64,000 nt of DNA from a candidate division Zixibacteria bacterium SM23_81. GTDB lineage: Bacteria > SM23-81. Location: positions 31,507-95,506 of the forward strand of contig LJUY01000010.1 in assembly GCA_001304015.1 (NCBI GenBank), read 5' to 3'. Shown piece after piece: positions 11,789 to 34,480 of the stretch. The position numbers and the translations under genes are program-made. The notes beneath the pieces were generated by a model, which saw only the letters and a program-made list of their open reading frames with translations, was not told the DNA's origin and did not search any database. The stretch's first letter is position 1, and the number at the start of each line of letters is the position of its first letter.

Positions 11789-11805
11789 GTTATCCTCCAT
11801 TCTCA

Positions 11806-11820: not shown

Positions 11821-11822
11821 CT

Positions 11823-11851: not shown

Positions 11852-12034
11852 GTCTTTTTTTTAAAATTTTTTCATTCCGCTGATGAATGAAATGTTTTGG
11901 GAGGATTTAGGGAAGGCATTTCATGGAGGTTCTGATTCACCTGAGATGGGTTCAAAACCCTTGCAACGACTCCAGGAGCGAATTTTTCCCGCCGATATTC
12001 GCTTGGCTTCTCTTTATCTCGACTACCTATTTAT

Positions 12035-12883: not shown

Positions 12884-12903
12884 CTGTTGCTCGCAGTCAC
12901 GTT

Positions 12904-14184
12904 TTATTTTTCATCCGACGTAGGATGAGATCCTGCTTCTAGCTCGGCTCTCGGGCTGTTCTTACCCTCCTGGAAGGCCACATTGACAAAACCGCCCAAC
13001 TTGCGATACTCATCCAGACGACACGAATTTACCAAATGCCCTTCATAGACGGTCATATCAGGACAACTATCGCACATGTCGGCCTGACCGTCCGGCAGCA
13101 CATCTGGAGCCTGGATGATGGCCACACTCTGCAAATATACTCTTCGAAAAACATGAAGTGGATTATGCAAAGCGCTTCTCAGAAATTTTCCAAATGCTTT
13201 TCGTATGCTTTTGTCGAAGAAAGCCGTGAGGAAGACAGCCTTGCTCGTTTTGGACAAATTTGGATATGCCACATAGGTGCCCCATAAAAGGTGATGAAAG
13301 GTCTGAGTCAACTCCATGGTTTTCTTCCCCACAGATCCATAAACCTCATTTTTAGAGGCCAGAAGAGCGGCAATAAACCACTTATAGGCATCATGCGAAC
13401 CTGTCCCCCCGAGGTAACCAGAGGGTTCGTATTCCTCAAGCTCGTTTTTGATAATGGTGTAGATATCGGTAGACATGATGTCGATCTCTGAGAGCTTATC
13501 CGTGGTATATGAAAGTTTGTCTTGTACACGAATCGTCTTATCTCCAACGACGTAATCTATCTTATCGCTTATGGGCACTCCCCGATAGGTGATAAATATG
13601 ATGCCGTTTACGATGTCGATGTTTTCTATGGCCCACCGGAGTACCTCTGGTATATGCCTGAAATTGGAATAATAGATGGTGGAGTTGAAGCTGCAATATA
13701 CGTCCTTTTCTTCGCTGACCATCTCGGCGTAGTATTGTCGAAGCTCGTTTAATTCCGCCTCATTTTTCCCTTTCCACTTAGGCCTATCCTGAAGACAATC
13801 TATGTGTATGGTAAGCCCTGCTAATCCAGCTTTTTTCAGCTCTCTCAGTTTTTCTCTGCTGAGAGTGAGGGCATTTGTCAGAACAACGGGTTTCATGCCA
13901 TTTTCGGCAGTAAATTCAACGACTTTCTCAATTTCCGGATAAATTAATGGCTCTCCTCCTGCAATGGAGATGTTATCGCAATTTCGCCATCTCTTGAAAA
14001 AGCGTATCTCCTCCTTTATCTCATCCAATGTTTTATGACCCGTCAGTCTTTGGCGATAACATCCCTTGCAATGCATATCGCAGATGTCAGTTACTTCGAG
14101 CCAGCCTATGGGATTATCGTTTTTGGACCACGGCAATCTGTAATAGTTTTTCTTAGGTGGGTAGATGCTCTCAAAATCCTTCAC
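12904..14184 (-). CDS. Radical SAM protein
   Basis: 426 residues. The radical SAM cluster motif CDMHCKGC (Cys35, Cys39, Cys42) is followed by the glycine-rich SAM motif ISIAGGEPLIYPEIE and the partial TIM-barrel pattern (VVLTNALTL, LTIHIDCLQDR). Towards the C-terminus CDSCPDMTVYEGHLVNSC supplies four more cysteines that could bind an auxiliary cluster, though the canonical SPASM spacing is not obvious. A helical section at ~300-360 is unusual in length. Upstream 213 bases carry no recognisable promoter. The neighbour is a nitroreductase-family gene. Possible jobs include peptide or lipid modification; the substrate is unknown. Confidence 0.85.
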   Translation of the reverse strand: MKDFESIYPPKKNYYRLPWSKNDNPIGWLEVTDICDMHCKGCYRQRLTGHKTLDEIKEEIRFFKRWRNCDNISIAGGEPLIYPEIEKVVEFTAENGMKPVVLTNALTLSREKLRELKKAGLAGLTIHIDCLQDRPKWKGKNEAELNELRQYYAEMVSEEKDVYCSFNSTIYYSNFRHIPEVLRWAIENIDIVNGIIFITYRGVPISDKIDYVVGDKTIRVQDKLSYTTDKLSEIDIMSTDIYTIIKNELEEYEPSGYLGGTGSHDAYKWFIAALLASKNEVYGSVGKKTMELTQTFHHLLWGTYVAYPNLSKTSKAVFLTAFFDKSIRKAFGKFLRSALHNPLHVFRRVYLQSVAIIQAPDVLPDGQADMCDSCPDMTVYEGHLVNSCRLDEYRKLGGFVNVAFQEGKNSPRAELEAGSHPTSDEK

Positions 14185-17583: not shown

Positions 17584-19623
17584 TTACTTTGCGTTCATCA
17601 AAGCTCGGTCGAACTCTCCCACCGGATCGGAATCGTCCGACTCTTTGGTGACGGAGACGGCAGTCACCGAGTAGTAATAATGGGTCCCGGTGTCGCCCAC
17701 CACTCCAGTGGTGTCCAAATAGAAGAGATCCTCGGTGGAATCGATCAAGGTGCTACCCGCATCCTGGGCGGTGGTATCTCGATAGATACGATAGCGATCC
17801 ACCCATACGGGATGATCATTCAAATTCAAGGTCACCGCCGACCACTCGAGAGAGATATCGCCGCTGCTGGACTTGGAGCTGCCGTCCGAAAGAGTGGCCG
17901 ACAGATCATCAACAGCCTTAGGGATCACGTCCAGAAAGTACCCGAAAAGGTCCGCGGGTCTCACCTGCGGATTGCCCACGGAATAGTTGTCGTCGTCGAC
18001 GATATGGACCCTGTTGACAAATGGTGGTAGATCATTGTCCTCGGCGCCGTTGCCGTACTTGTAGTCCACCCACTTGTTGGACCCCAGGGGGAAAGTGACG
18101 GTGATGGTCCAGATGCTATCCCCTGCGGTGGCATCGCCGTTGAGACCCTCATCGTTAAGGGTATCCGGATTCGTCGGCAGGAAGTCCCAGGTGAGCGGAG
18201 AGACGCTACCCACGATGATCAGTGGGCTCTTCACCGTATCCACCATGCTCATGTCCACGCTGAAGACGACTGCCACAGCCTGTTCGGTCAGCTCAATGGG
18301 TGTGTAGGTAAGCTTTTGATCCGTGGTGTCGGTCACCTGGAACTGCCAGTTGCCATCGATCCAGATCCCACCCGTGTCGGTGACACCCCACTGCCATGTG
18401 TTGGCTCCATTGTCTGTCACCAAATCAAGGATGTGCGTCCAGATGTGGTCTCCGGGGGTCTCATCCCCGTTGCTTCCATCGTCGTACATGTCGTAGAGGA
18501 AACCCATGCCCCAGGATGGATCGTAGGCGTGATAGGTGTTGGTATCCCAGCTCCCCTTGAACTTGTAGCCGGGTGCATAGAGGGTATCCATGGTGTCGAT
18601 AACGCAGAAGCTCACCTGTGCGATGCCGAATCCGATGAAGCTGGCATCATCGGCGGTGGGGTCCATACCATTACCCCCCAGGTCCTTCACATTTGAGCTA
18701 ACCGTCACGGTATAGGAAACGCCATAAGTTTGGCTGCTGGTTGTTAACAGCACCTGGTCGGTGGCTAGAGACTCGGCAGCCGATACCACCAGACCATCAG
18801 TAATGGAGTAATTGGCGGGATTATAAGCCGATGTGTCCATGGCCTCGCTGAAAGTCACACTCACATGGGTCCAGTCCGTGGCGACAGCACCTTCCACCCG
18901 CGGCTTAGTTGTATCCGCTCCCACGGATCGGTGAACCAGGGTGGAGAGGGCGATCTTGGCCGTGTCGGCCCAATCGCCCGCCACGCCGTTCCAATCGTCG
19001 GACGGGTCGTTAGATGTGTCCCTGGCGTTGTCGCTGCTTCCACCTCCGGTACTCCATACCTCACACCACAGGGAGTCTGGGTTGCCGATTCTCGACCTGG
19101 CTATCTTCCACTCCAAACCCGAGGTGTCCCCCGCGCTCAGGGCTGCGCCATCTAAGCCATTAAACATAGCCCAACTACCTGCACTGTCGCTATACCCCCA
19201 AAACTGCGTGTGGTCGGTGCCATAGGGGGGGCTGTCCACCCAGCTGTATAGGCCGTACTCAGGCAAATGCGTGGCTATGCCGCGGACGCTGCGGGTCCAG
19301 GCGTCGGAGGTGGCTCCTAAGCTGCTATCTCCGTTCGTGTCCAGATAGATGACGTACTTGCCCCAGTTGGTGGTCGCGATGTCGTCGTCAATGGTGAAGC
19401 AGAAGTACCAGTAGGAACCGTCATTACACACATATAGATTGAGCAGGTCCATGTTGTCGTTGCCGGCTCCATCCGTATCGGGGTCGGCAGCCTCAAAGGT
19501 CCCATAAATGGCATCGGGAATTCCATCCATGATGGGCGAGCCAAAACCCTCAGACCATGCCCCCGAGGTCCAAACCAGTGAGCAGGCCACCAGCATCACC
19601 ATAGACAAAATGATCCTTTTCAT
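17584..19623 (-). CDS. Secreted multidomain protein (DOMON/CBM9-like, Ig-like, starch-binding-like, FN3)
   Basis: 679 residues from ATG 19623 (GGAGGAG upstream). Residues 1-25 are a signal peptide (MKRIILSMVMLVACSLVWTS). Then, in order: a CBM9/DOMON-like beta domain (~30-230, with VIYLDTNGDSSLG), a bacterial Ig-like domain of the SbsA type (DTTKPRVEGAVATDWTHVSV), two domains resembling CBM20/choice-of-anchor modules with a repeated YDDGSNGDETPGDHIWT / LNGDATAGDSIWT motif, and a final fibronectin-III-like domain. The C-terminus reads VGEFDRALMNAK, similar to the end of the 37.5 kb protein. Probably exported and surface-bound; a polysaccharide ligand is possible but unproven. Confidence 0.72.
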   Translation of the reverse strand: MKRIILSMVMLVACSLVWTSGAWSEGFGSPIMDGIPDAIYGTFEAADPDTDGAGNDNMDLLNLYVCNDGSYWYFCFTIDDDIATTNWGKYVIYLDTNGDSSLGATSDAWTRSVRGIATHLPEYGLYSWVDSPPYGTDHTQFWGYSDSAGSWAMFNGLDGAALSAGDTSGLEWKIARSRIGNPDSLWCEVWSTGGGSSDNARDTSNDPSDDWNGVAGDWADTAKIALSTLVHRSVGADTTKPRVEGAVATDWTHVSVTFSEAMDTSAYNPANYSITDGLVVSAAESLATDQVLLTTSSQTYGVSYTVTVSSNVKDLGGNGMDPTADDASFIGFGIAQVSFCVIDTMDTLYAPGYKFKGSWDTNTYHAYDPSWGMGFLYDMYDDGSNGDETPGDHIWTHILDLVTDNGANTWQWGVTDTGGIWIDGNWQFQVTDTTDQKLTYTPIELTEQAVAVVFSVDMSMVDTVKSPLIIVGSVSPLTWDFLPTNPDTLNDEGLNGDATAGDSIWTITVTFPLGSNKWVDYKYGNGAEDNDLPPFVNRVHIVDDDNYSVGNPQVRPADLFGYFLDVIPKAVDDLSATLSDGSSKSSSGDISLEWSAVTLNLNDHPVWVDRYRIYRDTTAQDAGSTLIDSTEDLFYLDTTGVVGDTGTHYYYSVTAVSVTKESDDSDPVGEFDRALMNAK

Positions 19624-19689
19624 CTCTCCTCCTTTCTGTCCCTGAGCCAATACCCAAGGAATGAAAAAGGTCACTTTCGGTATATTTTT

Positions 19690-20611: not shown

Positions 20612-20639
20612 TTGAACACTCAAGATTCCCACATAATAT
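20612..20639 (+). promoter_or_regulatory. Possible promoter of the + strand envelope operon
   Basis: TTGAAC (20612-20617), 16 bases, TAATAT (20634-20639). It is the best-looking promoter upstream of the operon; the -35 is one base off consensus. Confidence 0.45.
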
Positions 20640-20877
20640 TAGGACGAGCGGGATCAGTTTTCCTAATTTGTTCCGAATTAGTTTTTACTCAATAGGTTTC
20701 GGCGACCTAGCAAATTTGAAGCAACCATCGGCAGCCCCTATGGCATACATTTTGCCGATATCCATCAATTAGGTGAAGCATCGAAACGGGAAATCAGGAA
20801 AAATTCCCGATATCGTGAAGCCACGCGGCAAGCCTCGTGGCTTAAAAAATAAGAGGTCCAATCTAGCGAGGTGGGTA
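20640..20877 (+). promoter_or_regulatory. Structured 5' leader of the envelope operon
   Basis: About 238 bases before the first ATG with four hairpins in series: CTAATT/AATTAG followed by T5 (20663-20686, shaped like a weak terminator), ATCGGCA/TGCCGAT near 20730-20760, GGGAA/TTCCC near 20790-20815, and AAGCCACG/CGTGGCTT (20819-20845). Early terminator-like hairpin plus later stems is the usual arrangement of an attenuation-type leader. No known riboswitch consensus is recognised. Confidence 0.4.
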
Positions 20878-23800
20878 ATGGTGAACGATATTTTCAAACG
20901 CTCTCACACTGCCTTCTTTCTTGCGGTGGCGGTGCTGTTCGGCGCTGTTTTAATCCCAACGTCGACTCTTGGCCAAGCCTACACGCAATTGCAGGTCTTG
21001 TTACCAGGAGAAACCGAGGCTCCTGGAACCCCAACTGGGAAATTGGGCTCCCCACAAGCGCAGACTGTACAAGTCCCTTTTACAGTCAAGGTGAGGGCCT
21101 GCGACTTATCTTGGAATACCGTGACTTCAATCACAAACATCGTACTGATCGGCTCCTCGGATGAAAGTGCCACCTTGCCGGGATCCACTCCGCTGGTCAA
21201 CGGACAGGTCAATCTGACCGTCACGCTAAACGCGGCGGGTTCGTTCACAATCTGGGCACGTGATGAGACAGATCCTACGATCCCGGAGGCGACTTCTGCC
21301 GCCGTCACAGTGTTAGCCCTACAGACCTTCCAGTTCTCCGACATTCATCAAAAGCACACATACGCCGGTGTGTCAGAATCGTATACCATCTGGGCGATGG
21401 ACCCCACCGGAAATGTGGTGACGGGATATTCAGGGCCTGTCCGCCTGAGGCAAATCACCAGTTATGGCGATGGACGCGTCTCACCCGAGGTGGTCACGCT
21501 CACGGGGGGGATCTGGTCGGGCTCGCTGACGATGTACCGAGCCGATGAGTCCAGCATCAATCGCGGCAACGTAAACCTTTTTGCATTTCTAGAAGCGAAT
21601 CCATCGATAAACGGCACCAGCGATCCCTTCATCGTGCACCCTGGTCCTTTTACGCGCGTGCAAATAGTTGTCCCCGGCCAGAATCCAGCGCCCGGAAGCG
21701 TAAGTGGAGTCTCCGGCTCACCGGCCACCCAGGGAGCTGGCCAGAACTTCAACGTTGACATCTACGCCACCGACACATATTGGAATCCAGTCCCGAGCTT
21801 TGATAATGTCCGCATCACCTCCAGCGATCCTGGAGCTAGCACTCCGGTGTCTGGTGCTTTGATGGAGGGTTTTCGGCAGTTCAGCATTTCCCTTGGCACC
21901 GTGGGATCCCAAACCCTTACGGTCACCGACCAGACCAATGGTTCCATCCAGGGAATGACCAGCACAGGAATCCCGGTCATTCCCAGTGCGCCGGATCACT
22001 TCGAGATCGATCCAATTTCCTCGCCGCTTGTGGCCGGCGAACCTGAGATCGTCACGATACGCGCCACCGATGTAGGCGGCAACACTCTTCCTGACTATCA
22101 CGGCAATGCCACATTATCGGCCAACACCGGACCTGGAAGCATTTCCCCAGAGGACATCGTCTTCAGCAACGGCGCATGGACCGGCGAGATGATCTTCCGA
22201 GGCGCAGGGGGTGCTGTTTCGTTCACCTGTTCTGACTTCGCAACACCTCCCCACACCGGGACGAGCATCAATTTTCAGGTTTTGCCGGGACCATTTGCGG
22301 GGCTTCAGGTCCTTCTGCCCGGACAGGTTCCTCAGGGCGGAACGGACTCGGGCTTCAGCGGAACCCCCTCGATCCAGAACGCCGGATCGAGCTTCAGCAT
22401 CATGGTTCGGGCGGTCGATGCCTTCTGGAACAGGGTGCCAGGTATTGACGATAGAATCGCCTTAAGTTCCAGCGATGCGTTCGCCGACATCGTGCCTGAG
22501 ACCACCCTGGTCAACGGAGAGCTCATTCTCCCCGTCACGTTGTTCAAGTCGGGCAGCCAAACCATCTCGGCTGCGGATCTCGACTCTGCCAGCATCGACC
22601 CTCATACCTCTAGCGCCGTGGAGGTCCTCACAGGGCCATACTCACGTCTTCTCATCCTGGTCCCAGGCGAGGAGCTCGCGCCGGGCACAGAGAATGGCCG
22701 CACCGGCACGGCTACCGATCAATCCATAAACTACGCCTTCACCATCACGGTATATGCTACCGACGCCTGGTGGAACCCAGTGACTGGGGTGAGCGACCTG
22801 GTCCGCATCACTTCCAGCGACCCATTAGCCGAGCTACCACAGGACACACCCTTAGTAGATGGACGAGTCGATCTGAATGTTCGATTATCCACAGGCGGAT
22901 ATCAACAGATCACCGTGTCCAACATCACTCAGCGGGGAATGCCGACCAGCACAACCGAAGTTCGTGCCATCTCCAGTGGCTTACACCTCGAGGCGGAAGT
23001 GAACCCGACCACGGTTCAGGCCGGTGAGTCATTCACCCTCACAGTGAAGGTGACCAACGACGCTGGGAGCATCATCCAGGAAATCAACTCCTTTGTAGAC
23101 GTCGAGGTGCAGAACGCGTCAACTCAAGAGCCAGGCAAGGGCACTCTGCTGACCACACGCTTCCAGCTCCTACAAGGGCAGCGTTCCATCCAGGAAACGT
23201 ACACGTTTGCAGAATCTATCATCCTTATTGTGAACGACAACCAAGGGAGCGCGCCAGCGGCCACTGACGTGATCCTCATTGAGCCAGGTCCTCCTGTGGC
23301 CATCGAAGTTGCCAGCAATCCCACCTGGGTTGGCGGAAACAAACACGCCGCGGTGAACGCTCGTGTGATGGATCTCTATGATAATGGTGTCCCCGAGCAA
23401 CCTGTAGACTTCGAGCTGATCAGCGGTTTGGGAACCCTCACGTCCATCGATTCCATAACGAACGCCGATGGGGTGGCCAGAGCCGACTTCTTAAGCCCAC
23501 GCATCCCCGAGATCAGCCGCGTCCGGGCCACTTCAAACAGTCTTGTCGCAGAGCTAGATATCGAAACGGCCCTGGTGAATCCCAACCTGCCGGGTGGAAC
23601 CGTTACCAACTACCCCAATCCGTTCCATCCCGGCGAGGCTCCCACAACGATTGCATATAAGCTCGCGGACAACGCCACCGTTGCCCTGCGAATCTACACC
23701 CTGAGTGGGGGACTGGTGCTCCGCAAAGATTTCTCATCCGGCAGGCCCGGGGGAATCGCCGGGCTCAACGAGTACAAGTGGGACGGCCGAAACGGCGCTG

Positions 23801-23901
23801 GTGACTATGTCTCCAGCGGGGGTTACGTCCTGGTCATCGAAGCCAAAGGTAGCGGCGAAACACTTCACGTCATGCGCCGCAAGATTGCGGTGGTGCGTTA
23901 A
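20878..23901 (+). CDS. Large Ig-repeat surface protein with FlgD/T9SS-like C-terminal module
   Basis: 1007 residues from ATG 20878, chosen for the GAGGTGGG ribosome site; an in-frame extension to 20773 is basic and lacks one. A signal peptide (FFLAVAVLFGAVLIPTSTLG) is followed by Ig-like/invasin-like domains. Four modules start with the same phrase, (L/V)(L/V)PGxxxxPGTxxGxxG, followed by WNPV and ITSSD motifs (near residues 35, 265, 485 and 605). The last ~95 residues, beginning NYPNPFHPGEAPTTIAY and containing YKWDGRNGAGDYVSSGGY, are a FlgD-Ig/por-secretion-type C-terminal module. Probably an exported filamentous surface protein; it heads the PorV-TPR-ExbBD-TonB operon, whose machine may export, anchor or move it. 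Confidence 0.78.
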   Translation: MVNDIFKRSHTAFFLAVAVLFGAVLIPTSTLGQAYTQLQVLLPGETEAPGTPTGKLGSPQAQTVQVPFTVKVRACDLSWNTVTSITNIVLIGSSDESATLPGSTPLVNGQVNLTVTLNAAGSFTIWARDETDPTIPEATSAAVTVLALQTFQFSDIHQKHTYAGVSESYTIWAMDPTGNVVTGYSGPVRLRQITSYGDGRVSPEVVTLTGGIWSGSLTMYRADESSINRGNVNLFAFLEANPSINGTSDPFIVHPGPFTRVQIVVPGQNPAPGSVSGVSGSPATQGAGQNFNVDIYATDTYWNPVPSFDNVRITSSDPGASTPVSGALMEGFRQFSISLGTVGSQTLTVTDQTNGSIQGMTSTGIPVIPSAPDHFEIDPISSPLVAGEPEIVTIRATDVGGNTLPDYHGNATLSANTGPGSISPEDIVFSNGAWTGEMIFRGAGGAVSFTCSDFATPPHTGTSINFQVLPGPFAGLQVLLPGQVPQGGTDSGFSGTPSIQNAGSSFSIMVRAVDAFWNRVPGIDDRIALSSSDAFADIVPETTLVNGELILPVTLFKSGSQTISAADLDSASIDPHTSSAVEVLTGPYSRLLILVPGEELAPGTENGRTGTATDQSINYAFTITVYATDAWWNPVTGVSDLVRITSSDPLAELPQDTPLVDGRVDLNVRLSTGGYQQITVSNITQRGMPTSTTEVRAISSGLHLEAEVNPTTVQAGESFTLTVKVTNDAGSIIQEINSFVDVEVQNASTQEPGKGTLLTTRFQLLQGQRSIQETYTFAESIILIVNDNQGSAPAATDVILIEPGPPVAIEVASNPTWVGGNKHAAVNARVMDLYDNGVPEQPVDFELISGLGTLTSIDSITNADGVARADFLSPRIPEISRVRATSNSLVAELDIETALVNPNLPGGTVTNYPNPFHPGEAPTTIAYKLADNATVALRIYTLSGGLVLRKDFSSGRPGGIAGLNEYKWDGRNGAGDYVSSGGYVLVIEAKGSGETLHVMRRKIAVVR

Positions 23902-23913
23902 TTAGGAGGACCC

Positions 23914-25182
23914 ATGAATTACTTTCTTAGTCATAGAAACGGCACGTTCGCCCTGGCCTTGGCTATAAGTTTCGGGCTGGCCATGGCCGGTGGAACCAGC
24001 GCACGGGCCGCAGATCAAAACGGAGGAGTGCCGGGAGACTGGCTCTCTCGTTATGCAGGAGCTCGTGCCCTAGGCTTTGGAGGAGCGTTTGTCGCTACTG
24101 CCGACGAGCCTTTGGGTGTGGTGTGGAATCCGGCAGGCCTCTCCCAGATGTTTCAGAACGGGGTCCACTTCGAGACGGCCTATCTCTTCGAAGGGACATC
24201 GATCAACGCTTTCAGCTTTGGAGTGCCTGCAAGATGGTTTCCAAGCTTCGGTCTGACCGTGCTCTCCTTGCGATCCGATGGTTTCGAGCGGACCAATGAG
24301 CTCAATGAATCGCTGGGAAGCTTTTACGAAGGGGAAATGGCCTTCTTGCTTTCCGCTTCCAAGAACCTCTCGCCACGCCTCTCGCTTGGCGCCAACGTCA
24401 AGGTTGTCCGTCAGACCATCGAGGAGTTCGACGCCGCGGGCGTTGGGGCCGACTTCGGCCTCCTCCTCTATCTCACTCCGACGTTGCGTCTAGGTACATC
24501 CCTGCTCAACGTGGGCGGGCCTAGGCTGACTCTGCGCGAAACAGATGAGGTTTATCCATTAGAGATCCGTGGTGGGCTCTCCAAAAATCTCTTTTCTGAT
24601 AGAGGTTTAATTACGTTTGAGATCGACCGACGCTCTGGACCAGGGGTGAGCTTTCACGGCGGCAGCGAGTTTTGGGTTCATCCCAGTATGGCATTGCGTC
24701 TCGGCTACTATGACGACTCCCCTACTGGAGGCTTTAGCTATCGCTTTCCACATGGCATACGTCTCGACTATGGGTTGTCTGACCACGAATTGGGCGTTAT
24801 CCACCGCATCGGGCTCTCGTTTCAGTTCGGCGGTTTCTTCGCCAGCTCTGAGGCTATCCCGCCGGTTTTTTCTCCTATCGGGGAGCAGTCAGTGACCAAG
24901 TTTCACCTGAAGGCCAAGACCAAGGCGAGCAGCAGTAACTGGAGCCTTGAGATTGTGGATAAATCCAACCAGATGGTGCGCCGTTTTAGTGGAAAAGGAG
25001 CACCTCCAGCGCACGTGATGTGGGACGGCAAGGGCGAATCAGGGCTATCTCTGCCCGATGGCCTCTACAGCTATCAACTCACGGTGGAGGATCAGGAGGG
25101 ACGGAAATTCACCGGGCCCAAAAGGACAGTCGAGATCACCACATCCGGGCCGCAAGGAACGGTGCCCATCGTCATCCAGTAA
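23914..25182 (+). CDS. PorV/PorQ-family outer-membrane barrel fused to a FlgD-like module
   Basis: 422 residues with a signal peptide ending near SARAAD. The start of the mature part, LSRYAGARALGFGGAFVATADEPLGVVWNPAGL, is the hallmark of the PorV/PorQ (UPF0164) barrel family, which in type IX secretion binds the C-terminal signals of cargo. Alternating beta strands continue to ~residue 305. From ~325 a FlgD-Ig-like module follows (MVRRFSGKGAPPAHVMWDGKGESGLSLPDG). It begins 12 bases after the Ig-repeat gene with an AGGAGG site. Pairing of a PorV-like barrel with a protein carrying a FlgD/T9SS-like tail suggests a barrel-cargo relation; no other type IX core genes are in the window. Confidence 0.82.
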   Translation: MNYFLSHRNGTFALALAISFGLAMAGGTSARAADQNGGVPGDWLSRYAGARALGFGGAFVATADEPLGVVWNPAGLSQMFQNGVHFETAYLFEGTSINAFSFGVPARWFPSFGLTVLSLRSDGFERTNELNESLGSFYEGEMAFLLSASKNLSPRLSLGANVKVVRQTIEEFDAAGVGADFGLLLYLTPTLRLGTSLLNVGGPRLTLRETDEVYPLEIRGGLSKNLFSDRGLITFEIDRRSGPGVSFHGGSEFWVHPSMALRLGYYDDSPTGGFSYRFPHGIRLDYGLSDHELGVIHRIGLSFQFGGFFASSEAIPPVFSPIGEQSVTKFHLKAKTKASSSNWSLEIVDKSNQMVRRFSGKGAPPAHVMWDGKGESGLSLPDGLYSYQLTVEDQEGRKFTGPKRTVEITTSGPQGTVPIVIQ

Positions 25183-25206
25183 ATAGAATAATAAGGAGTC
25201 GAAGGC

Positions 25207-28200
25207 ATGTCTCACCTGAAACCGAAGAGCTCGATGGCTTTTGCCACGCTGGCACTTTCAGGAATGGTCCTGTTCGCCATGGCCATCTTGTCTGGGCCTG
25301 CAGCCTCAGAGGCCAATGCTCCCGTTAACGCTCAGCCGACCACATTATCTGACGTCGGAATGGAGCTAGAAAAAATACGACTATTCCCAATTACAGGGCG
25401 ACAGAACGCTCTGGAAGAGGTGGCGCGTTCCATAAACGAGCTGATGCGTGTTGGCATCCCCTCAGAGCAACGCAGCGCGGCCTACTTCTTGTCCGGAGAA
25501 ATCCGCTATGACCTGGGCAACTACCTCCAAGCTGCTGAGGAGTTTCGAAAATCCGAGAAGGCCAGCAAACACAACTCGTTCTCTGGCGCAGCCGCAGCCG
25601 CGTCCATCATGGCCCTGGAGGCATCAGGGAGGGACGATGATGCCGCCCGGGCTTGGATGAAGTGGGAAAACAAGTACAAGAACAATCCGTTTCTTCCAGA
25701 AGTTCTCCTGGCTCGAGCATGGAACGCTCTTCGTCGAGACACCCTCGCCACAGCGACAAAAAGATTGGAACAGTTGACGTCGAGCTTTCCATGGATGGAG
25801 AAGGACCCCCGTACCATTCTGTTGATCGCCACGGTGGCCTATCTCGAGGAGCGTCCCGCGGACGCTCTCGCTGCCCTAACGGATGAAATCACCGGTGCTG
25901 CGGCAACTTATCTGCGCGCTCTGTGCTATGAAGCTGAGGGGGCGATGCTGAAGGCAGCAGCCCAATACCAGGAGGTGGTAGAGCGTTATCCCGAATCGAC
26001 GCTTCGGGACCATGCCATGCTGGCCAAGGCCAATATCTTTATGACCAGCGGTGTTTATCGGAGCGCCACAGAGGAGTTCACACTCGTGGTCGAGAAGGCC
26101 TCGCAGCCATACGTACATGCCGAAGCAGCACTGCGGAATGCAGCCTCGGTCTTTTTGGACGGCGACGCCACAGGAGGAGCTGATCTTCTCCGCGAGGTAG
26201 TGAAGAATCATGCAGGTACCGACCAGGCGGCTCGTGCACAGCTCCTCCTGGGCGAAGTGCTCTTTAGCCAATCATTATATAAGGAGGCCATCCCCGAGTT
26301 CAATCGTGTGCTGACAGATTATTTCGAGCATTCGCTCGCCGCAAGAGCCCAATACCGCGTGGGTCGATGTCTCGACGCCTTGGGACGCCAGTCCGACGCG
26401 ACCAGCACATATCAAGCTGTTGTTTCAGGTTACCCTTTGGCCCCAGAGGCGCCGGCGGCAGCATATCTCGCGGGTGTCGGTCTTTTGGAACAAGATCGTC
26501 CTCTTGCAGCTGTGCCCTATTTCCAGCTGGTGCTGGACCGCTATGCTCGCGACGACAGCACTGGAACGCTCGTTTTTGCATCGCCCGATCATCAGGAGCT
26601 CGTCGAGGCTTCGCTGTGTCTCCTGGAGCTCTCATATCACAGGGCGGGAGACCTGGGACAGCTTTCGGGCGTGCCTCATCTCATGCTTCAAAAGATGCCA
26701 CACAGTAGCTCGCCGTGGCGAGCGTATGCTCTCCTGATTGATGCCGACGCCCTGGCGGCACAGGCCCGCTATTCCGATGCCCAGGCCGTTCTGGACAATC
26801 TCATTCAAGAATTTCCCGAACACCCTGTGGGGATCTCTGCCAACCGCCTTTTGGCATGGACCTTTGCCCAGCAGGGTCGCGATGACCTGGCCATCAAAAC
26901 CGAGGAACGGATGCTGGCGCGATACGCATCCCACGGTGACATGAAAAGCCTGAGTTCGGCATACCTCAACAAAGCCCATATTCTTTTCAATAGGAAAAGC
27001 TACCAGGAGGCCGCCGCGACATATGATGAGTTTCTAGATCGATTCCCGAATAATCCGCAACACTTGCTGGCACTATATCAGGCAGGACTTTGCTACCTGC
27101 GCCTCAACCTGGCTGGTGACGCGGTGGATCGCTGGGAAGCTATTGTCGCCAAGGCGCCAGATGCGGAAATCGCGGAGCGCGCCTGGGTGCGCGCCGGAGA
27201 CTTGTATTTCCAGGCGGAGCGCTTCGAAGATGCCAAACGCTGCTACCAAGGTTTGCTCGACCATTTTACCAACAGTCGCATCACCGCCTTGGGCTTACTT
27301 CGCCTGGCACAGTGCGAGTACAACGCGAGCCGGGACCCAGAGGCTCTGGAGCTCTACTCAGTTGTAGTGGCCCGTTTCCCTGACTCGGCCGAGGCTCGCG
27401 AAGCGGAGCGGGGTATGGAGTTGGCTCTTTACCGCTTAGGGCAAAGGGAGGACGGCAGCGAAGTATTGGCCCAGCTGGTCGAGCGCTATCCCACCAGTGC
27501 CTTCGCGGCGGACGCGCAGTTCGAGATCGCCATGCGTCACTACAAGGAGAAGCATTTCCGTCAAGCAGCCGAGGAATTCCGCCGTGTTGTGAGCCAGTTT
27601 CCCGACTATTCCGCGGCTGATCGAGCCCATTTCCTTATGGCAGACGCCCACGGCCAGGTTGGCTCGGCTCAGGAAGCTCGCCTCGCCTATGAGCAGTTTC
27701 TGCTGTTCTTCCCCGAAAGCGAACTTCGCACCACGGTGCGGTTCCGTCTGGGATCACTCCGATTCGGTGAAGGTGACTACATACGTGCGGCTGTTGATTT
27801 CACAAGTGTCCTGGATGCGAATGCCTCTGAGGAACTGTCGTCGGCCTCCCTCTATAACCTGGCACTATGCCATCGCATGATGGGGGAGGCTGCTCAGGCC
27901 CAAGAGGCGCTCGAGCGTTACCGAGAGCAACATTCCACCGACGATGAACGTGCGGCTGATGTAGCTTATCAACTGGGCGAAATCCATGATTCTGCAGGTC
28001 GGACTGCACTGGCAGCGGAGGAGTTTAAGCGGGCACTTGCCTCACAGCCCTCCGCGAATCTGACCATAGAGCTCTACTATCGTCTCGGTCAGTGCCGGGA
28101 GCAACTCGGCGATCACGACGGTGCCATCAATGCCTACAAAAAGGCCGGCGCCGCAAAAGATAAAGCCGATGCTTTCCGCCTCTCCGCGGTGGCCCGTTGC

Positions 28201-28338
28201 GCAGCTCTTTACGAGGAAGAAGGCAAATTCAAAGAAGCTCTCTCTGCTTACTATTCTCTCATCCAAGATGCCGAAGATCCCGAGCTGGTATTTGCGGCTG
28301 AGCAGCGCGCTTCTCAGCTCGAGACCATTATCAAGTGA
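25207..28338 (+). CDS. Large periplasmic TPR-repeat protein
   Basis: 1043 residues, signal peptide at ~10-35 (ATLALSGMVLFAMAILSG), and then almost continuous tetratricopeptide repeats. Many carry the P-x-S/D or YP end pattern, for example AAAQYQEVVERYPES, AIPEFNRVLTDYFEHSLAARA, YQEAAATYDEFLDRFPNNPQ and EEFKRALASQPSANL, giving well over a dozen units. TPR solenoids scaffold multi-protein assemblies; YbgF/CpoB of the Tol system and GltD/GltE-type proteins of gliding machines are functional parallels. No catalytic motif is visible. It lies between the barrel and exbB genes in one operon, the position expected for a periplasmic bridge between the outer-membrane part and the inner-membrane motor. 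Confidence 0.85.
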   Translation: MSHLKPKSSMAFATLALSGMVLFAMAILSGPAASEANAPVNAQPTTLSDVGMELEKIRLFPITGRQNALEEVARSINELMRVGIPSEQRSAAYFLSGEIRYDLGNYLQAAEEFRKSEKASKHNSFSGAAAAASIMALEASGRDDDAARAWMKWENKYKNNPFLPEVLLARAWNALRRDTLATATKRLEQLTSSFPWMEKDPRTILLIATVAYLEERPADALAALTDEITGAAATYLRALCYEAEGAMLKAAAQYQEVVERYPESTLRDHAMLAKANIFMTSGVYRSATEEFTLVVEKASQPYVHAEAALRNAASVFLDGDATGGADLLREVVKNHAGTDQAARAQLLLGEVLFSQSLYKEAIPEFNRVLTDYFEHSLAARAQYRVGRCLDALGRQSDATSTYQAVVSGYPLAPEAPAAAYLAGVGLLEQDRPLAAVPYFQLVLDRYARDDSTGTLVFASPDHQELVEASLCLLELSYHRAGDLGQLSGVPHLMLQKMPHSSSPWRAYALLIDADALAAQARYSDAQAVLDNLIQEFPEHPVGISANRLLAWTFAQQGRDDLAIKTEERMLARYASHGDMKSLSSAYLNKAHILFNRKSYQEAAATYDEFLDRFPNNPQHLLALYQAGLCYLRLNLAGDAVDRWEAIVAKAPDAEIAERAWVRAGDLYFQAERFEDAKRCYQGLLDHFTNSRITALGLLRLAQCEYNASRDPEALELYSVVVARFPDSAEAREAERGMELALYRLGQREDGSEVLAQLVERYPTSAFAADAQFEIAMRHYKEKHFRQAAEEFRRVVSQFPDYSAADRAHFLMADAHGQVGSAQEARLAYEQFLLFFPESELRTTVRFRLGSLRFGEGDYIRAAVDFTSVLDANASEELSSASLYNLALCHRMMGEAAQAQEALERYREQHSTDDERAADVAYQLGEIHDSAGRTALAAEEFKRALASQPSANLTIELYYRLGQCREQLGDHDGAINAYKKAGAAKDKADAFRLSAVARCAALYEEEGKFKEALSAYYSLIQDAEDPELVFAAEQRASQLETIIK

Positions 28339-28371
28339 TACACAGGAAAGTCAACCAGAAGGAGAATGAAA

Positions 28372-29070
28372 ATGTTTTCAGACTTCAATTGGATGGACGC
28401 GATCTTTAATAGCCCCATCTTCCTGGTCTTGGTGGTCTGCAGCGTCGTTACTTTAGGGATTGCCATTGAACGAGCCTACTATTTTTGGAAGCGACGTGGC
28501 AATCCAGACGAGACGCTCACGCTGGCGCTGAAGAAACTACGCACGGGAAAAATAAAAGAGGCCTCTTGGACCTGCGAGAACAGTCCCCATCCAATGGGAC
28601 CGGTGGCAAGCCAGGTTTTCCAGAGCGAGAACCCCCAGGGAGAATCGTTTGAGGAGCGTCTCCATATCACTTTGAGCCAGCAGAAGATCTTGCTTGAGCG
28701 CAATCTTGGCTTTCTGGGAACAATGGCAGCTATTGCGCCTCTTATTGGACTCCTGGGAACGGTATGGGGCATCATGCGCGCTTTCCACGACATGGCCCTG
28801 ACTGGGTCGGCTGCGCCAGCGATAGTGGCTGCAGGTGTAGCGGAAGCGCTCATGACCACGGCCGCCGGCCTGATTATCGCCGTGCCCGCCCTGATTCTTT
28901 ACAACCACTTATCCCGCCGCATGAATGTAATGCTCACAGTGGCCGAGAACCACGCCCGTAGCCTTCGCATGGCTCTGATTGAGGCGATGACAAACGAAGC
29001 TCCCCAACCTAAGATCAGCGACTCTCGAGTAGACGTGCGTCCTCTGGAGCCGGTGGGCACGGAAGGTTGA
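28372..29070 (+). CDS. exbB: ExbB/TolQ-family proton-channel protein
   Basis: 232 residues. First membrane helix near residues 14-34 (PIFLVLVVCSVVTLGIAIERA), then the cytoplasmic loop, and the conserved MotA/TolQ/ExbB core: LGFLGTMAAIAPLIGLLGTVWGIMRAF and GVAEALMTTAAGLIIAVPALILYNHL, the two helices that line the proton path. Start chosen at 28372, where GGAG is seven bases upstream; an ATG two codons earlier is too close to that site. The protein would form the pentameric motor with the two ExbD proteins that follow and drive the TonB protein encoded after them. Confidence 0.93.
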   Translation: MFSDFNWMDAIFNSPIFLVLVVCSVVTLGIAIERAYYFWKRRGNPDETLTLALKKLRTGKIKEASWTCENSPHPMGPVASQVFQSENPQGESFEERLHITLSQQKILLERNLGFLGTMAAIAPLIGLLGTVWGIMRAFHDMALTGSAAPAIVAAGVAEALMTTAAGLIIAVPALILYNHLSRRMNVMLTVAENHARSLRMALIEAMTNEAPQPKISDSRVDVRPLEPVGTEG

Positions 29071-29108
29071 CGGGAGAAATCAGAAGGCACGCTGACGAGG
29101 TGCGCATC

Positions 29109-29519
29109 ATGTTCCACAAAAAGGTACACCAAAACGAACAAGGGGAGCGTGAGATCAACATGACCCCCCTTATCGACGTTTCTCTGGTGCTGGTGGTGAT
29201 GCTCCTGCTGGCAACGCCCCTCACCTTCGAATCAAGCATCGCCGTGAACAAGTCTGCTACCAGCGCCCAAACGGCCGATAGCGTGAGTAATGAGAAACGC
29301 ATTGAACTACGTGTGGTCTCGGAGGAGAAGGTACAGGTTAATCGCAACCTTGTGAATCGTGAGGTCTTAGTGGAAACGCTGCAGCCTCTCCTAGAGGCTA
29401 GCTCACCTGCTCTAGTGGTGGTGGCGTGTGCAGATAACGTCTCCCATAGAGCTTTCGTGGATGTCCTCGACAAGGCCAAATTATGCGGCGCAACAGAGAT
29501 CGCCGTGATGGGGAGGTAG
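29109..29519 (+). CDS. exbD: ExbD/TolR-family protein 1
   Basis: 136 residues. Single N-terminal helix with the diagnostic proton-carrying aspartate: REINMTPLIDVSLVLVVMLL, the Asp of PLIDV, followed by a periplasmic TolR-like domain (KRIELRVVSEEKVQVNRN... VVVACADNVSHRAFVDVLDKAK). The ATG at 29109 is preferred (GAGGTG eight bases upstream); an earlier TTG at 29067 overlapping exbB has no spacing for a ribosome site. It is one of two consecutive ExbD genes, so the motor may hold a heterodimeric ExbD core, as described for MotAB-like and gliding motors with two TolR homologs. Confidence 0.92.
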   Translation: MFHKKVHQNEQGEREINMTPLIDVSLVLVVMLLLATPLTFESSIAVNKSATSAQTADSVSNEKRIELRVVSEEKVQVNRNLVNREVLVETLQPLLEASSPALVVVACADNVSHRAFVDVLDKAKLCGATEIAVMGR

Positions 29520-29520
29520 C

Positions 29521-29946
29521 ATGCGACTCTTCACCGTAACCCCCAATTCCAATATCCCGAAGATTAACGTCGCGCCTATTATCGACGTGGCGCTTGTTCT
29601 GGTCATTATCCTGCTCATCACAGCGCCGATGCTTTCGGTGACAGATATGGGCGTCAGCTTGCCCCAGGCGCAAACGCGCGGCGTAGAAGACGCGGTCCGA
29701 TTGAGCATCACGCTGAGCAAGACTGGAGAGATGGCTATCAATGAGCAACCCATCGCGCCTGACGACTTAACCAGTATTCTCTGCTCATGCCTTTCTAAAC
29801 AAAACAACGAGAACATGCTGGTTGTGGTACGTGCCGACGAGGACGTCTCTTATCAGGCCGTACGCAAAATCCTCCGGGCAGCACGGGCTGCAGGAGCAAA
29901 GCGCCTCGCCATAGCGACGCGCCAGAGTGGGAGAGAAAACCGATGA
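29521..29946 (+). CDS. exbD: ExbD/TolR-family protein 2
   Basis: 141 residues. Helix KINVAPIIDVALVLVIILLI contains the conserved Asp in the IIDV motif; the periplasmic part has the TolR-like beta-alpha pattern (LSITLSKTGEMAINEQPI... LVVVRADEDVSYQAVRKILRAARAAG). GGGGAGGTAGC immediately precedes the ATG, one base after the first ExbD's stop. It diverges from ExbD 1 outside the motor helix, so it is not a recent duplication; two distinct ExbD types are the more likely reading. The tonB gene overlaps its stop codon. Confidence 0.92.
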   Translation: MRLFTVTPNSNIPKINVAPIIDVALVLVIILLITAPMLSVTDMGVSLPQAQTRGVEDAVRLSITLSKTGEMAINEQPIAPDDLTSILCSCLSKQNNENMLVVVRADEDVSYQAVRKILRAARAAGAKRLAIATRQSGRENR

Positions 29947-30887
29947 ATACATCCACCATGAGCCTTGAACTGACCGCCATCCGGTCACATACCCGCAAGG
30001 GCATGGGAGCTAGCTTCCTGGTTCACATCCTTTTCTTCGTGTGGCTCATTCTGTACAGGAATTTGGTTCCCGCACCGCCCGGGATTATCGAAATCACCTG
30101 GATCGAATCAGTGGAGGCTGAACCTGTCGCGGCGCCAATCACTGCCGCAGCGATCATAACGGAAACCAATCAGAAATTGGTAGATTGGAGACCTTCGTCC
30201 CAACAATCTCAGGTTCATTTTCCTCGGGAAACGCCCCAGGCTGATGTGGCACTTCGCCCGCAAAATAAGGAAGCAATAGAGGATAAGCTAAGCGAACGAT
30301 TAGCTTCACTGCAGAGAAATGCCACCGAAAAGCATACTTATGTGGCTGCGCCGATAACATCCAGCCCCATAGCGAGTTCACCTTTAGCGAACATTCCCAC
30401 CAAGGGGAGTACAACTCACGGATCGATTGAGCTCGCCCGCCAGCCAGTCACTGATTACCAACCCATCGAGCTCCGCTACGCCGAGTCGAAACTTCCCAGG
30501 CCGACCATGGCCATGGTCAAGAACCCAGCGCCCTCAATCACCCCGGCATCGGAAAAAAAGACGGACTACGTGGCGAGGCGCACTCTTGCGGGAGCATCCC
30601 TAGTTGGGCCTGTCGTCGACAGACCGTTAGTCTCGTATAACACCCCTAGGTATCCTGAATGGGCCAAGCGAGAAGCCATAGAGGCCTCGGTAACACTTTA
30701 CTTTGTAGTTCTCCCCGACGGGCGGGTGAAGGAGAACGTCTTGATTCAGAAAACCTCTGCCTTTGAGGACTTCGACCGTAATGCAACTTCCGCGCTCCTC
30801 ACCTGGCGTTTCGAGCCCCTGCAGGGGGACGCTACCGGTGAACAGTGGGGTTTGATCACTTTTCACTACAAGCTGAGCGATGCGTAA
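29943..30887 (+). CDS. tonB: TonB-family protein
   Basis: 314 residues. One N-terminal membrane helix (GASFLVHILFFVWLILY, with the His seen in TonB helices), a long ~190-residue periplasmic linker with many Pro/Ala/Thr residues but without the classical EP/KP repeats, and a C-terminal TonB domain from ~residue 225: NTPRYPEWAKREAIEASVTL, VVLPDGRVKENVLIQKTSA and ALLTWRFEPL. ATG overlaps the stop of exbD 2. It would carry motor energy across the periplasm. No TonB-dependent receptor gene is in the operon, so its target is either elsewhere or a partner encoded here (TPR protein or barrel). Confidence 0.9.
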   Translation: MNTSTMSLELTAIRSHTRKGMGASFLVHILFFVWLILYRNLVPAPPGIIEITWIESVEAEPVAAPITAAAIITETNQKLVDWRPSSQQSQVHFPRETPQADVALRPQNKEAIEDKLSERLASLQRNATEKHTYVAAPITSSPIASSPLANIPTKGSTTHGSIELARQPVTDYQPIELRYAESKLPRPTMAMVKNPAPSITPASEKKTDYVARRTLAGASLVGPVVDRPLVSYNTPRYPEWAKREAIEASVTLYFVVLPDGRVKENVLIQKTSAFEDFDRNATSALLTWRFEPLQGDATGEQWGLITFHYKLSDA

Positions 30888-30919
30888 GTTTGCTAACTGA
30901 CAATAAGAAGGAATTAGCC

Positions 30920-31882
30920 ATGTTTTTTACCGTTTCTCGCCACACTTGTTCCGTTTGCACGGCTGCTTTAACGGGGATAGTGCTGCTGTTCTCGTCTACC
31001 TGGGCTGCTGACGACATGGTCTCGCCCGACAGCGGCATGATATTGCGGGGAGGTGAGCAAGGCACCGTGTTTAAGAGCCTGACGGTGGAGGGTGAAGATC
31101 AAATTAGGATCGAGTTCAGCCGCCCCTCACTCGATCTCGAATTGGATCCCAAGTTGGCTCCAGGTCTCGAGTGGGAGAGCACTCACGAACTTCTCGATCA
31201 CTATGGGCTCGACCTCGTCTCGCCACTGCTTAAAAAATCCGCCTACGAACGCTGCCCCTATCTCCCTCGTCCCTGGCTAAACCAGTTCGCCTCCGGCGAT
31301 ATAGTCCACTTTCGCCCCGCTGTGGAAGGCGTCGACCGTTGGGAATTGACCGTTGCCAATTCTCAGGGGCACAGTGTCGCCATCTTTAAGGGAAAAGGAA
31401 AACCTCCCAAAGAAATCGGTTGGGACGGCCGTTCGCTGGACGGAGCTCTAGTACCACCAGGACTTACCTATTCGTATGTCCTGGAGGCATTTGATCGTGC
31501 TGGGAATAAGCGCAACTTCGTGGGTGAGGGTTTCGAGCTGCCTTCGTACCGGCGAGAGACTCCAGATGGCTTTGCTTTACTGCTCTCGGGCCGCGAACTT
31601 TCGAGGTCAGCATCCCTCAGTCATAACGACAGCGAAGCGCTGCCAGCACCCATCCTCCTGGAGGCCGCAAGCTGGATAAACCTGTTCAGCCGACCGGATC
31701 ACTTGATCCGCGTGGAGGTGACTGCGCGCACCTACGACCAAGCCAACGCCCTGTCTCAAAAGGTTGTGGATACCCTTAAGCCCTTATTATTGGGGGACCC
31801 AATCCGCATCCAAGATTACACAAACGTGCAGCCCGATGCTCCGGACCAGGGAACAGTGTCGATCACCGTTTCTCGCTCATGA
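30920..31882 (+). CDS. Exported protein with FlgD-like module and OmpA-like C-terminal region
   Basis: 320 residues from ATG 30920 (AAGGAA site). Signal peptide near 10-30 (AALTGIVLLFSSTWAADD). A middle section repeats the FlgD-Ig pattern (VAIFKGKGKPPKEIGWDGRSLDGALVPPG) seen in the PorV-like protein of the same operon. The last ~75 residues (LIRVEVTARTYDQANALSQK, VVDTLKPLLL) resemble the second half of an OmpA/Pal peptidoglycan-binding domain, though without the clear NxxLSxxRA motif. It closes the operon and is followed by a strong terminator. A likely job is holding the machine to the wall or the outer membrane; this is inference from domain resemblance. Confidence 0.65.
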   Translation: MFFTVSRHTCSVCTAALTGIVLLFSSTWAADDMVSPDSGMILRGGEQGTVFKSLTVEGEDQIRIEFSRPSLDLELDPKLAPGLEWESTHELLDHYGLDLVSPLLKKSAYERCPYLPRPWLNQFASGDIVHFRPAVEGVDRWELTVANSQGHSVAIFKGKGKPPKEIGWDGRSLDGALVPPGLTYSYVLEAFDRAGNKRNFVGEGFELPSYRRETPDGFALLLSGRELSRSASLSHNDSEALPAPILLEAASWINLFSRPDHLIRVEVTARTYDQANALSQKVVDTLKPLLLGDPIRIQDYTNVQPDAPDQGTVSITVSRS

Positions 31883-32004
31883 GCGAAGAATGCCCTGTTT
31901 TGGATGTCGTATTTTCGAACTCTACCTGGAAGCACATAAAGCTCATTCCTCATTGCCGTAGACCATCTGAAATAATCGCTGTCGCCAATAGTGCTTGTCA
32001 AAAA

Positions 32005-32040
32005 GAAAAGGCTGTCTTTCCACAGAAAGACGGCCTTTTC
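32005..32040 (+). terminator. Terminator of the envelope operon
   Basis: A 16-bp stem, GAAAAGGCTGTCTTTC against GAAAGACGGCCTTTTC with one G-U, and a CACA loop. Its 3' arm contains the T4 run. It ends the + strand operon 120 bases after the last stop. Confidence 0.75.
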
Positions 32041-32509
32041 GATATCTGGCCCCCCAGGTTGGACCATAGATAGACTTTCGAGGTGGTGTTTGAATACCCA
32101 AGCGTTGATAAAAGGCGTAAGGCCCTCAAGTCAAGCCGTTCAAGCTCTATTGCAATCACAACATCCTGGCCGAGGAGTGGCGAAGGATGATTAACAATGG
32201 GATTTCTCTTATCCTGCCTGTCTGGCCCGGAAGTCAGGCTTTCCCCACTCCCGGGCGATTTAAATCCTGCGGCTTCTCACGTTCAACTAGGATGTTTTAA
32301 AACCCTGGCGCATTCGGAAAGCCCTCACTTAGGACATTATCAACCAACGGAATTCAGGTCTCTTGTCAACCCCCAGCGAAAAAACAGAATTTGCATGAAT
32401 TTATAGAAAGGGAAAACGTTATAAAAGCTCCTTTATACGAAGCTATAACCTAGATTTTCTTGACTCGCCTTTATTCTGGTAAAGATGAGACCATGGAATT
32501 CCCTTCATC
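32041..32509. other. Intergenic region, no gene seen
   Basis: About 470 bases between the + strand operon terminator and the converging secreted-protein gene. Short open frames occur on both strands but none has a ribosome site or recognisable product. Confidence 0.5.
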
Positions 32510-34480
32510 TCATTGCCCCGGTGGGAACGGATTGATGATTAGGTAATGCACTTGAATATCGCCCGGGGGAGGAAATGGTGGGGTCACACAGGTGACCCGG
32601 ATGCTGGCAACCCCAGTACCTTTAGCGACCACCTGAGCGAACATGGGCTCAGTAGCCTCAACGGTTAAAAGGATGATGCTGTCCTGAACGATGAGAGGAT
32701 TCATGAGTGTCGTTAGAGTCCAATAGTAATATATGTGGCAGTGGGGGTCATGCTCGCATCCGCAGGTGCAGGTCACTATGACCCACTCGTTTGTTTGCGA
32801 TGTCCATGAGGGCGTAAACACTAACGTACCAGCGGGTCTATTTGGTCCGCTGACCGTGACAGCTCCGTCTCGGATTTCCAGCGCGGCTGCCCGGGGATCT
32901 CCGAGCGCGTTGACGCCGTCCCCAATAGCTTGGACTCCAGCTTTGGAAGAATCGTCCAAATCCGCCTCCCCAATTACCCCATAGCTGATGTCCGAGTAGC
33001 CATAGACGCCGGCGCTATCGAGAAGATCAGGATATTGTAGCTGCCTGCCTACGGTCCCAACGACACCCATTTTGTAGATGCTCTCGCCCCAAACTCCCAC
33101 ATACTCAGCAGCTTGCCCTAAAACACCCACTTGTTCTTTGATGATGGCGGGCGTGAGCGGAAAGTGGGCCGGTGGCCAACCTCCCTCATAGGTAATGCCA
33201 CGGACGCCTGCAGTGGTAAAACCAGGTTCATCACCCGGTATGCCGACAACACCATGTCCTTTCATGCCACCAATGCCAAGAACGCCTGTCGCGGAATTCT
33301 CGTCAGGAGTCCCAACGACGGCGAAGTTATCCGCATCATCATAGTAAGCCATCTTGGGGCTACCATGAACCCCTCCTTTAATATCGGTGAGGATATTGAA
33401 GGTCTGGGCTCTTTGGGTTTTCCCATGCACACCGTCGTTATGTTGGCTCTCGCCATAGACACCGAAACCGGTGCCAGCCGTCCACGAGTCAATCCCATTA
33501 AGGGCATTTGCTGGATTGTATAAACTGACAAAGATGCCGTGACCTAATGGTCCCACATTGGCAACACCTATGCCGTTATCACTGGAACTTATGATGTCAA
33601 CATTAATGTTGCCCCTGGTAACTTCTACTTTCGACCCAGAAACAGGTGATGTAAGCCCAATGCCAATATCATCGCCAACATTGGAAGCATACATAAAGCC
33701 AGTGCTGGCTCCTGACCAGTCGCCGTCTCCGACACCGCCTGGAGGCTGCCAAGTTCCCACACCAGTTGCGTCTGAAGTTAACACATAACTGGCAGTTGCA
33801 CCCATGGGCATTTTGAACCCGGTCATCTGGGCTGTGCCCGCAACCTCGAGCTTCTCAGCCGGACTCAGCGTCCCAATGCCGACGTTGCCTGTTGTGTCGT
33901 CGATATATACTCTGGTCATTCCAACCGTCTGCAGTTGTAATGGACTGTTACTGGAAACGCGGTTGGCAAATAATGTACTATCGATTTTGGCACTCCCGAC
34001 CACATGCAGCTTCTCCGCTGGACTTGCCGTTCCGATGCCAACACTGTCCGTTACCGTTGTGAGCCTCACCACCGTCCCATCGTCAGTCCAGCCACCACTG
34101 GATTGAGCATCAGCCGCCTTAAATGCATACCCCACACTGGCAATCCGCTCTCGGGGCTGCAGCTCCGCATCGGTGCCCACCCGGACCCCCAACCAGAGGG
34201 AGGGATCATCGAAGGTCGTGTCCGGGATGCTGTTCACCTTTCCCAGCAAGACGTTGAATAGACCACTGCTCACCACCACCCCCGACTGAGTTTCTGTCCA
34301 TACTTGAGTTCCTCCCGTTGAATCACTATAGATGGAGAAGGTCATGGAAACGGTCGTGTCCAATGCCACGCCGTTCGTGTCGGTAAGCGTGCCCTGGTAG
34401 TTGATCAGACCGGGCACATCGGCCATCGCTGCTGTCGATAACAGGACTATCGACAGCACCATTAAAGTGGTCGCTCTCAT
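32510..34480 (-). CDS. Secreted beta-rich adhesin/fibre-like protein (paralog B)
   Basis: 656 residues. Signal peptide MRATTLMVLSIVLLSTAAMA, then an N-terminal domain shared with the 34.9 kb protein: DVPGLINYQGTLTD, TMTFSIY-type strands, SGLFNVLLG and PRERIASVGYAFKAADA. A phage-tail-fibre-like section follows with repeated VGIGT(A/L)SPAEKL motifs, then a long Gly-rich part with short repeats (GVxGxx) typical of beta-helical fibres, and a unique tail with CTCGCEHDPHCHIYYYW. GGAGG precedes the ATG. No membrane anchor is visible. A trimeric fibre exposed on the surface is a reasonable guess; no enzyme motif is seen. Confidence 0.7.
   Translation of the reverse strand: MRATTLMVLSIVLLSTAAMADVPGLINYQGTLTDTNGVALDTTVSMTFSIYSDSTGGTQVWTETQSGVVVSSGLFNVLLGKVNSIPDTTFDDPSLWLGVRVGTDAELQPRERIASVGYAFKAADAQSSGGWTDDGTVVRLTTVTDSVGIGTASPAEKLHVVGSAKIDSTLFANRVSSNSPLQLQTVGMTRVYIDDTTGNVGIGTLSPAEKLEVAGTAQMTGFKMPMGATASYVLTSDATGVGTWQPPGGVGDGDWSGASTGFMYASNVGDDIGIGLTSPVSGSKVEVTRGNINVDIISSSDNGIGVANVGPLGHGIFVSLYNPANALNGIDSWTAGTGFGVYGESQHNDGVHGKTQRAQTFNILTDIKGGVHGSPKMAYYDDADNFAVVGTPDENSATGVLGIGGMKGHGVVGIPGDEPGFTTAGVRGITYEGGWPPAHFPLTPAIIKEQVGVLGQAAEYVGVWGESIYKMGVVGTVGRQLQYPDLLDSAGVYGYSDISYGVIGEADLDDSSKAGVQAIGDGVNALGDPRAAALEIRDGAVTVSGPNRPAGTLVFTPSWTSQTNEWVIVTCTCGCEHDPHCHIYYYWTLTTLMNPLIVQDSIILLTVEATEPMFAQVVAKGTGVASIRVTCVTPPFPPPGDIQVHYLIINPFPPGQ

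Follow-up and report, generated by a model that had tools for sequence, protein, structure and literature searches.

An eight-gene Ig-protein/PorV/TPR/ExbB-ExbD-ExbD/TonB operon conserved in at least three phyla: a candidate trans-envelope machine

Introduction

On what does a Ton-type proton motor act when its genes share an operon with those of a PorV-type outer-membrane barrel and an exported Ig-repeat protein? This question is raised by an operon in the window, the stretch of 64,000 nucleotides analyzed here, taken from contig C36 in a 3.07-Mb MAG. No description of the eight-gene assembly was found: no literature combining ExbB with PorV, TPR and Ig came to light, nor any on T9SS in Gemmatimonadota, and papers on ExbB, PorV and T9SS describe no such operon in their titles or abstracts.

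Organization of the operon

Eight ORFs, all intact and all on the plus strand, occupy 20878–31882 between flanking genes that all lie on the minus strand, exactly the isolated plus-strand run that had been read from the letters alone. Their order is Ig-repeat protein, PorV-family barrel, TPR protein, ExbB, ExbD1, ExbD2, TonB and P8, a FlgD-Ig/OmpA-like protein. The intergenic gaps, measured from stops to likely starts, are 12, 24, 27, about 38, 1, −4 and 32 bases.

The exported Ig-repeat rod protein (20878..23901, +) has 1007 aa from the likely ATG at 20878, within an ORF that opens at GTG 20773. The start region is conserved in alignment A3, which supports this ATG, so the left boundary of 20612 in the original prediction takes in upstream DNA. 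The PorV-family (FadL-fold) barrel (23914..25182, +; 422 aa) ends in a FlgD-like Ig domain, and the exported TPR protein (25207..28338, +; 1043 aa) has YbgF/PorW-like repeats. They are followed by an ExbB/TolQ-type proton channel subunit (28366..29070, +; 234 aa) and two ExbDs. ExbD1 (29109..29519, +) has 136 aa from the likely ATG at 29109, a start supported by the matching length of homologues, in an ORF from TTG 29067; its TM aspartate lies in PLIDVSLVLV, and that of ExbD2 (29521..29946, +; 141 aa) in PIIDVALVLV. The TonB-family protein (29943..30887, +; 314 aa) joins an invariant SxxxH in its TM helix to a canonical TonB C-domain. P8 (30920..31882, +; 320 aa) consists of a flexible N-terminus with a TonB-box-like motif, a FlgD-like Ig domain and a degenerate OmpA/MotB-like domain. 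The domain calls (Ig and PorV families, TPR/YbgF/PorW-like, MotA_ExbB, ExbD twice, TonB_C) agree with the gene identities first proposed; for the last protein the agreement comes from its structural model.

A hairpin with a 16-bp stem at 32005..32040 is a probable (bidirectional) terminator. Its strength was also foreseen: the MFE of 31990–32050 is −26.4 kcal/mol, with a z-score of −6.2. A general promoter/terminator scan gave a site count not above that of shuffles.

Other exported proteins are encoded nearby on the minus strand. One of them, 696 aa long and carrying a Big_5 Ig-like domain (17584–19674), adjoins the operon. Two adjacent proteins (32510–34480 and 34857–37178) have a common N-terminus (VPGLINYQGTLTD...), and the second of them carries YadA-head repeats.

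Recurrence and inheritance

About 40 retrieved regions, together with loci from one scan of named genomes, were annotated for gene order. Wherever the contig is long enough, the order Ig-PorV-TPR-ExbB-ExbD1-ExbD2-TonB-P8 is found. The one exception is L168 (1473–6629), where a 1404-aa Ig protein adjoins a PorV-like barrel without motor genes; its genome holds the full operon set elsewhere. Complete loci of type A, as defined below, number 17 with the window included. The named collection adds four more, some with the frame broken in one gene. Six type-B loci are complete or nearly so, two intermediate loci (L166 and L295) occur in further lineages, and one locus (L297) has seven operon genes before its contig ends.

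In another phylum, genome G028 has orthologues of all eight genes in identical order, at 29–53% identity, with TonB lowest. The nearest named relative found, Candidatus Zixiibacteriota CSMAG_1030, has an Ig protein 80% identical to that of the window. Among carriers with names, most are MAGs of Krumholzibacteriota/Krumholzibacteriia and Eisenbacteria, and some are labelled Latescibacterota or Gemmatimonadales. Because the genomes of L166 and L295 are listed outside the phyla of the window and of G028, the operon is present in at least three phyla. The gene-neighbourhood search that the original prediction had called for thus finds an order that is not unique to this contig, and the unit withstood the refutation test that the prediction had set. 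The reading that eight unrelated genes merely stand side by side, which has nothing in its favour beyond the commonness of each family taken singly, can be dismissed, because the identical order recurs in more than 25 loci, spread over several families and no fewer than three phyla. The eight genes are one conserved, co-inherited unit.

As search queries the parts differ: P8 retrieved only one distant orthologue, and the Ig protein performs far better. Ig matches in Mucilaginibacter, Elusimicrobia, Verrucomicrobia and others were rejected as generic Ig repeats, the operon being absent there.

The operon exists as two paralogous sets, A with a rod of about 968 aa and B with one of about 2000 aa. 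Type B also differs from type A in a longer TonB and in a diverged TPR protein and ExbD1. Three genomes carry both sets, and there each A protein is nearer to its A counterparts in other genomes than to the B protein encoded in its own. The worst A match exceeds the best B match in 17/17 rows for six of the eight proteins, and in 15/17 for ExbD1 and TonB. In the ExbB tree, all 18 type-A rows form one clade (support 98/99) and 6/8 type-B rows a second (98/98), the remaining two branching nearby, unresolved; the Ton and DUF4159-type ExbBs of the same genomes fall outside these groups. This separation across proteins, together with the ExbB clades, indicates that the sets are inherited as blocks.

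The rod and its barrel

The Ig protein contains Big_1, BatD and FlgD_ig domains. Measured from the first repeat motif to the C-terminus, type-A rods mostly have exactly 968 aa (usual range 964–978; outliers L137, L138 and L152), and in nearly all of them the stretch that runs from YPNPF to the C-terminus is 96 aa long. Most type-B rods have 1980–2003 aa. In the tails, type A has NYPNPF and ends in RRKIAVVR, and most type B have NRPNPF and end in RRKIAVVK. Since the length is near-constant to the residue, the rod is a structural part. Such a fixed length and such conserved tails are not what a variable adhesin would show. Against the T9SS sorting-domain model TIGR04183 the C-terminal domain scores 18 bits (cut-off 23), and against FlgD_ig 33 bits; by these scores the rod appears to end in a divergent T9SS-like domain.

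The barrel scores 94.4 bits against the PorV family (curated cut-off 90) and also contains FlgD_ig. Its profile matches F. johnsoniae PorV (E 9e-14), its model matches substrate-bound PorV (8gl6) at Z 31.4, and the model of its tail matches the PorU C-terminal domain at Z 12.8. Its fold is that of FadL/PorV, and its nearest sequence relatives are PorV/PorQ, not FadL. By sequence and fold, the barrel is a member of the PorV/PorQ family. The genome of the window, a MAG outside Bacteroidota, has 24 PorV-family matches, so a PorV by itself means little.

The motor and its periplasmic partners

The channel helices are kept in ExbB, the TM aspartate in both ExbDs, and the SxxxH of TonB in 26/26 rows. 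ExbB is about equally near to TolQ and ExbB, the only structures that the TonB C-domain matches are those of TonB, and two distinct ExbDs are common to sets A and B. Judged by its sequence features (MotA_ExbB, ExbD, TM aspartate, TonB C-domain and SxxxH), the motor belongs to the ExbB-ExbD-TonB/TolQR proton-motor class.

The TPR protein is YbgF/CpoB-like, with weak similarity to PorW, and no lipobox was seen in it. P8 has no family match at E <= 0.01, and its model matches the OmpA/MotB fold at Z ~10 and FlgD/PorU-CTD at Z ~8. In OmpA, a loop and the Asp/Arg serve peptidoglycan binding; as read from alignment A4, the OmpA-like domain of P8 lacks both. In its flexible N-terminus, a conserved stretch matches 6–8 of the 8 positions of the TonB-box signature of receptors, and some chance sites score equally. 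The resemblance is a lead only. No classical TonB-dependent receptor (22-strand, with plug) is encoded in the operon; the first reading that a TonB receptor is missing here holds for that class, with the TonB-box-like stretch of P8 as a possible qualification.

Compared with the ExbB-ExbD-TonB energizer of TonB-dependent receptors, the operon shares the motor and transducer with motifs intact; it differs in having no such receptor and in an ExbB of a separate clade.

Related motor genes occur elsewhere. In the same genome, locus L044 (contig C47, 2427–4535) holds an ExbB-ExbD-ExbD-TonB run of its own, after which comes a TolC-like gene. Locus L045 (C58:2000–21900) carries at 4815–14156 a run of PorV, an 870-aa barrel, a TPR protein (1041 aa), ExbB, ExbD and DUF4159; its design is related to that of the operon, without TonB C-domain or Ig rod, and it is partly present in relative G001 (L172). 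The ExbB-ExbD-TonB loci L170 and L171 were rejected as Tol-Pal; L171 adjoins aspartate kinase and phosphate-transporter genes.

SprA and type IX secretion

In T9SS, energy input is proposed to detach PorV from SprA together with its substrate (PMC10994853), and the power train of P. gingivalis consists of PorL/M, PorN and PorW (PMC8754138). SprA was found in 24/24 genomes tested, that of the window included, where it is encoded outside the operon (1969 aa; 799 bits in frame, cut-off 200). GldM was found in none of 14 SprA-bearing genomes, and neither was GldL above its cut-off, with a positive Bacteroidota control for each; diverged versions may escape the models, and one genome (G463) has a GldL match below threshold. 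A SprA match accompanies the operon-type PorV in 12/12 sampled genomes versus 126/386 overall, a count over related genomes without correction for phylogeny, and in 7 of those 12 it is weak or does not reach the curated cut-off. SprA also occurs without the operon in two relatives, G001 and G002, so the operon cannot be a general motor for SprA.

The 126/386 sampled genomes with SprA-like matches belong to many families, a distribution apparently wider than the restriction of complete T9SS to Bacteroidetes given by an older survey (PMC4793230).

The operon resembles T9SS in its barrel, homologous to PorV, in the seemingly substrate-like C-terminal domain of its rod, in a weakly PorW-like TPR protein, and in the presence of a proton motor with SprA in the same genomes. 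It differs in that the motor is ExbB/ExbD/ExbD/TonB, with GldL and GldM not found in the genomes tested. In addition, a FlgD-like domain is appended to its PorV, its rod has a divergent C-terminal domain, and it encodes its own presumed substrate while SprA lies outside it.

A proposed mechanism

The best-supported reading, to which we give about even credence, is that a Ton/Tol/Agl-type motor acts on a dedicated PorV carrier and an Ig rod. An inner-membrane motor of the Ton/Tol/Agl class, driven by the proton-motive force, would consist of ExbB, the two different ExbDs and TonB. The movement of TonB would be passed on through the periplasm by the TPR rod and P8, through presumed contacts. In the outer membrane, the PorV-type barrel would carry or anchor the Ig rod by the rod's C-terminal domain, the FlgD-like domain of the barrel probably facing the periplasm by analogy with FadL barrels, and the rod would stand on the cell surface. 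The purpose of such a machine may be export and anchoring of the rod, or its movement. The original prediction of a proton-motive-force-driven complex for the Ig fibre gains from the conserved trans-envelope unit, the intact motor motifs and the exported rod, whichever of export, anchoring or movement it may serve.

In this reading, the rod would most likely exit via the SprA translocon, encoded elsewhere, and then dock on the operon PorV. A pull by TonB, if force acts in this direction, would free or move PorV with its rod, replacing GldL/GldM for this one substrate. A bolder form, less likely than not, is that a Ton-type motor powers type IX-like export, with TonB pulling PorV and the fixed-length rod off SprA in phyla without GldL/GldM.

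Alternative readings

It is rather unlikely that the machine is an Agl-Glt-like surface motor, which would move or tether a rod exported by other means for gliding or surface traction, TonB cyclically touching P8 or PorV and pushing the barrel-rod complex sideways. The Agl-Glt core comprises one TolQ-type, two TolR-type, TonB-like and TPR proteins with outer-membrane partners; several bacteria encode it in a single region (PMC3169522), and a push from TonBC to the outer-membrane barrel through TonB-domain contacts has been proposed (PMC5349195). Compared by gene content alone, the operon fits this core of Agl-Glt/Nfs (Myxococcus, with the core in other bacteria), the two distinct ExbDs are conserved in both sets, and both systems point to trans-envelope work on outer-membrane proteins. 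However, the operon contains no cytoskeletal or polarity partner genes and no visible cytoskeletal link, and ordinary Ton operons may also have two ExbDs, as L044 does. We know of no Agl-Glt counterpart of the PorV barrel, Ig rod or P8.

Doubtful, too, is Tol-Pal-like envelope maintenance, with P8 as Pal, the TPR protein as CpoB and TonB as TolA, and with a surface layer tied to the outer membrane by PorV and the rod. The TolQ/TolR-type motor, an ExbB near TolQ, the YbgF/CpoB-like TPR protein and the OmpA-like fold of P8 speak for it. However, TolB, expected with Pal beside TolQRA, is absent from the operon, the degenerate domain of P8 is without the Pal-type binding residues, and the transducer is TonB-type, not TolA-type. 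PorV and the Ig rod are additions, and a patchy distribution, along with genomes that carry both A and B, is ill suited to housekeeping. As a change from the parallels originally drawn, the barrel and the C-terminal domain of the rod tie the unit more closely to type IX PorV than to Tol-Pal.

TonB-driven uptake, in which the FadL/PorV-fold barrel would import a hydrophobic compound caught by the surface Ig protein, has the FadL fold (Z ~31) and the Ton motor on its side, but is very improbable: in sequence the barrel is nearest to PorV/PorQ, a rod of constant length would be an odd ligand catcher, and the operon has no catabolic genes.

Biological meaning

Each part of the operon is of a known kind; the eight-gene assembly, of which no description was found, recurs unbroken across uncultured, little-known phyla. 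The constant rod length is a testable puzzle in itself. If a Ton/Tol/Agl-type motor does act on the PorV carrier and its rod, the operon would explain what energizes SprA/PorV-type export or surface movement in the absence of the known motor. Proton motors of different kinds could then drive PorV-SprA secretion, and the small set of Ton/Tol/Agl machines working at the outer membrane would gain one more member.
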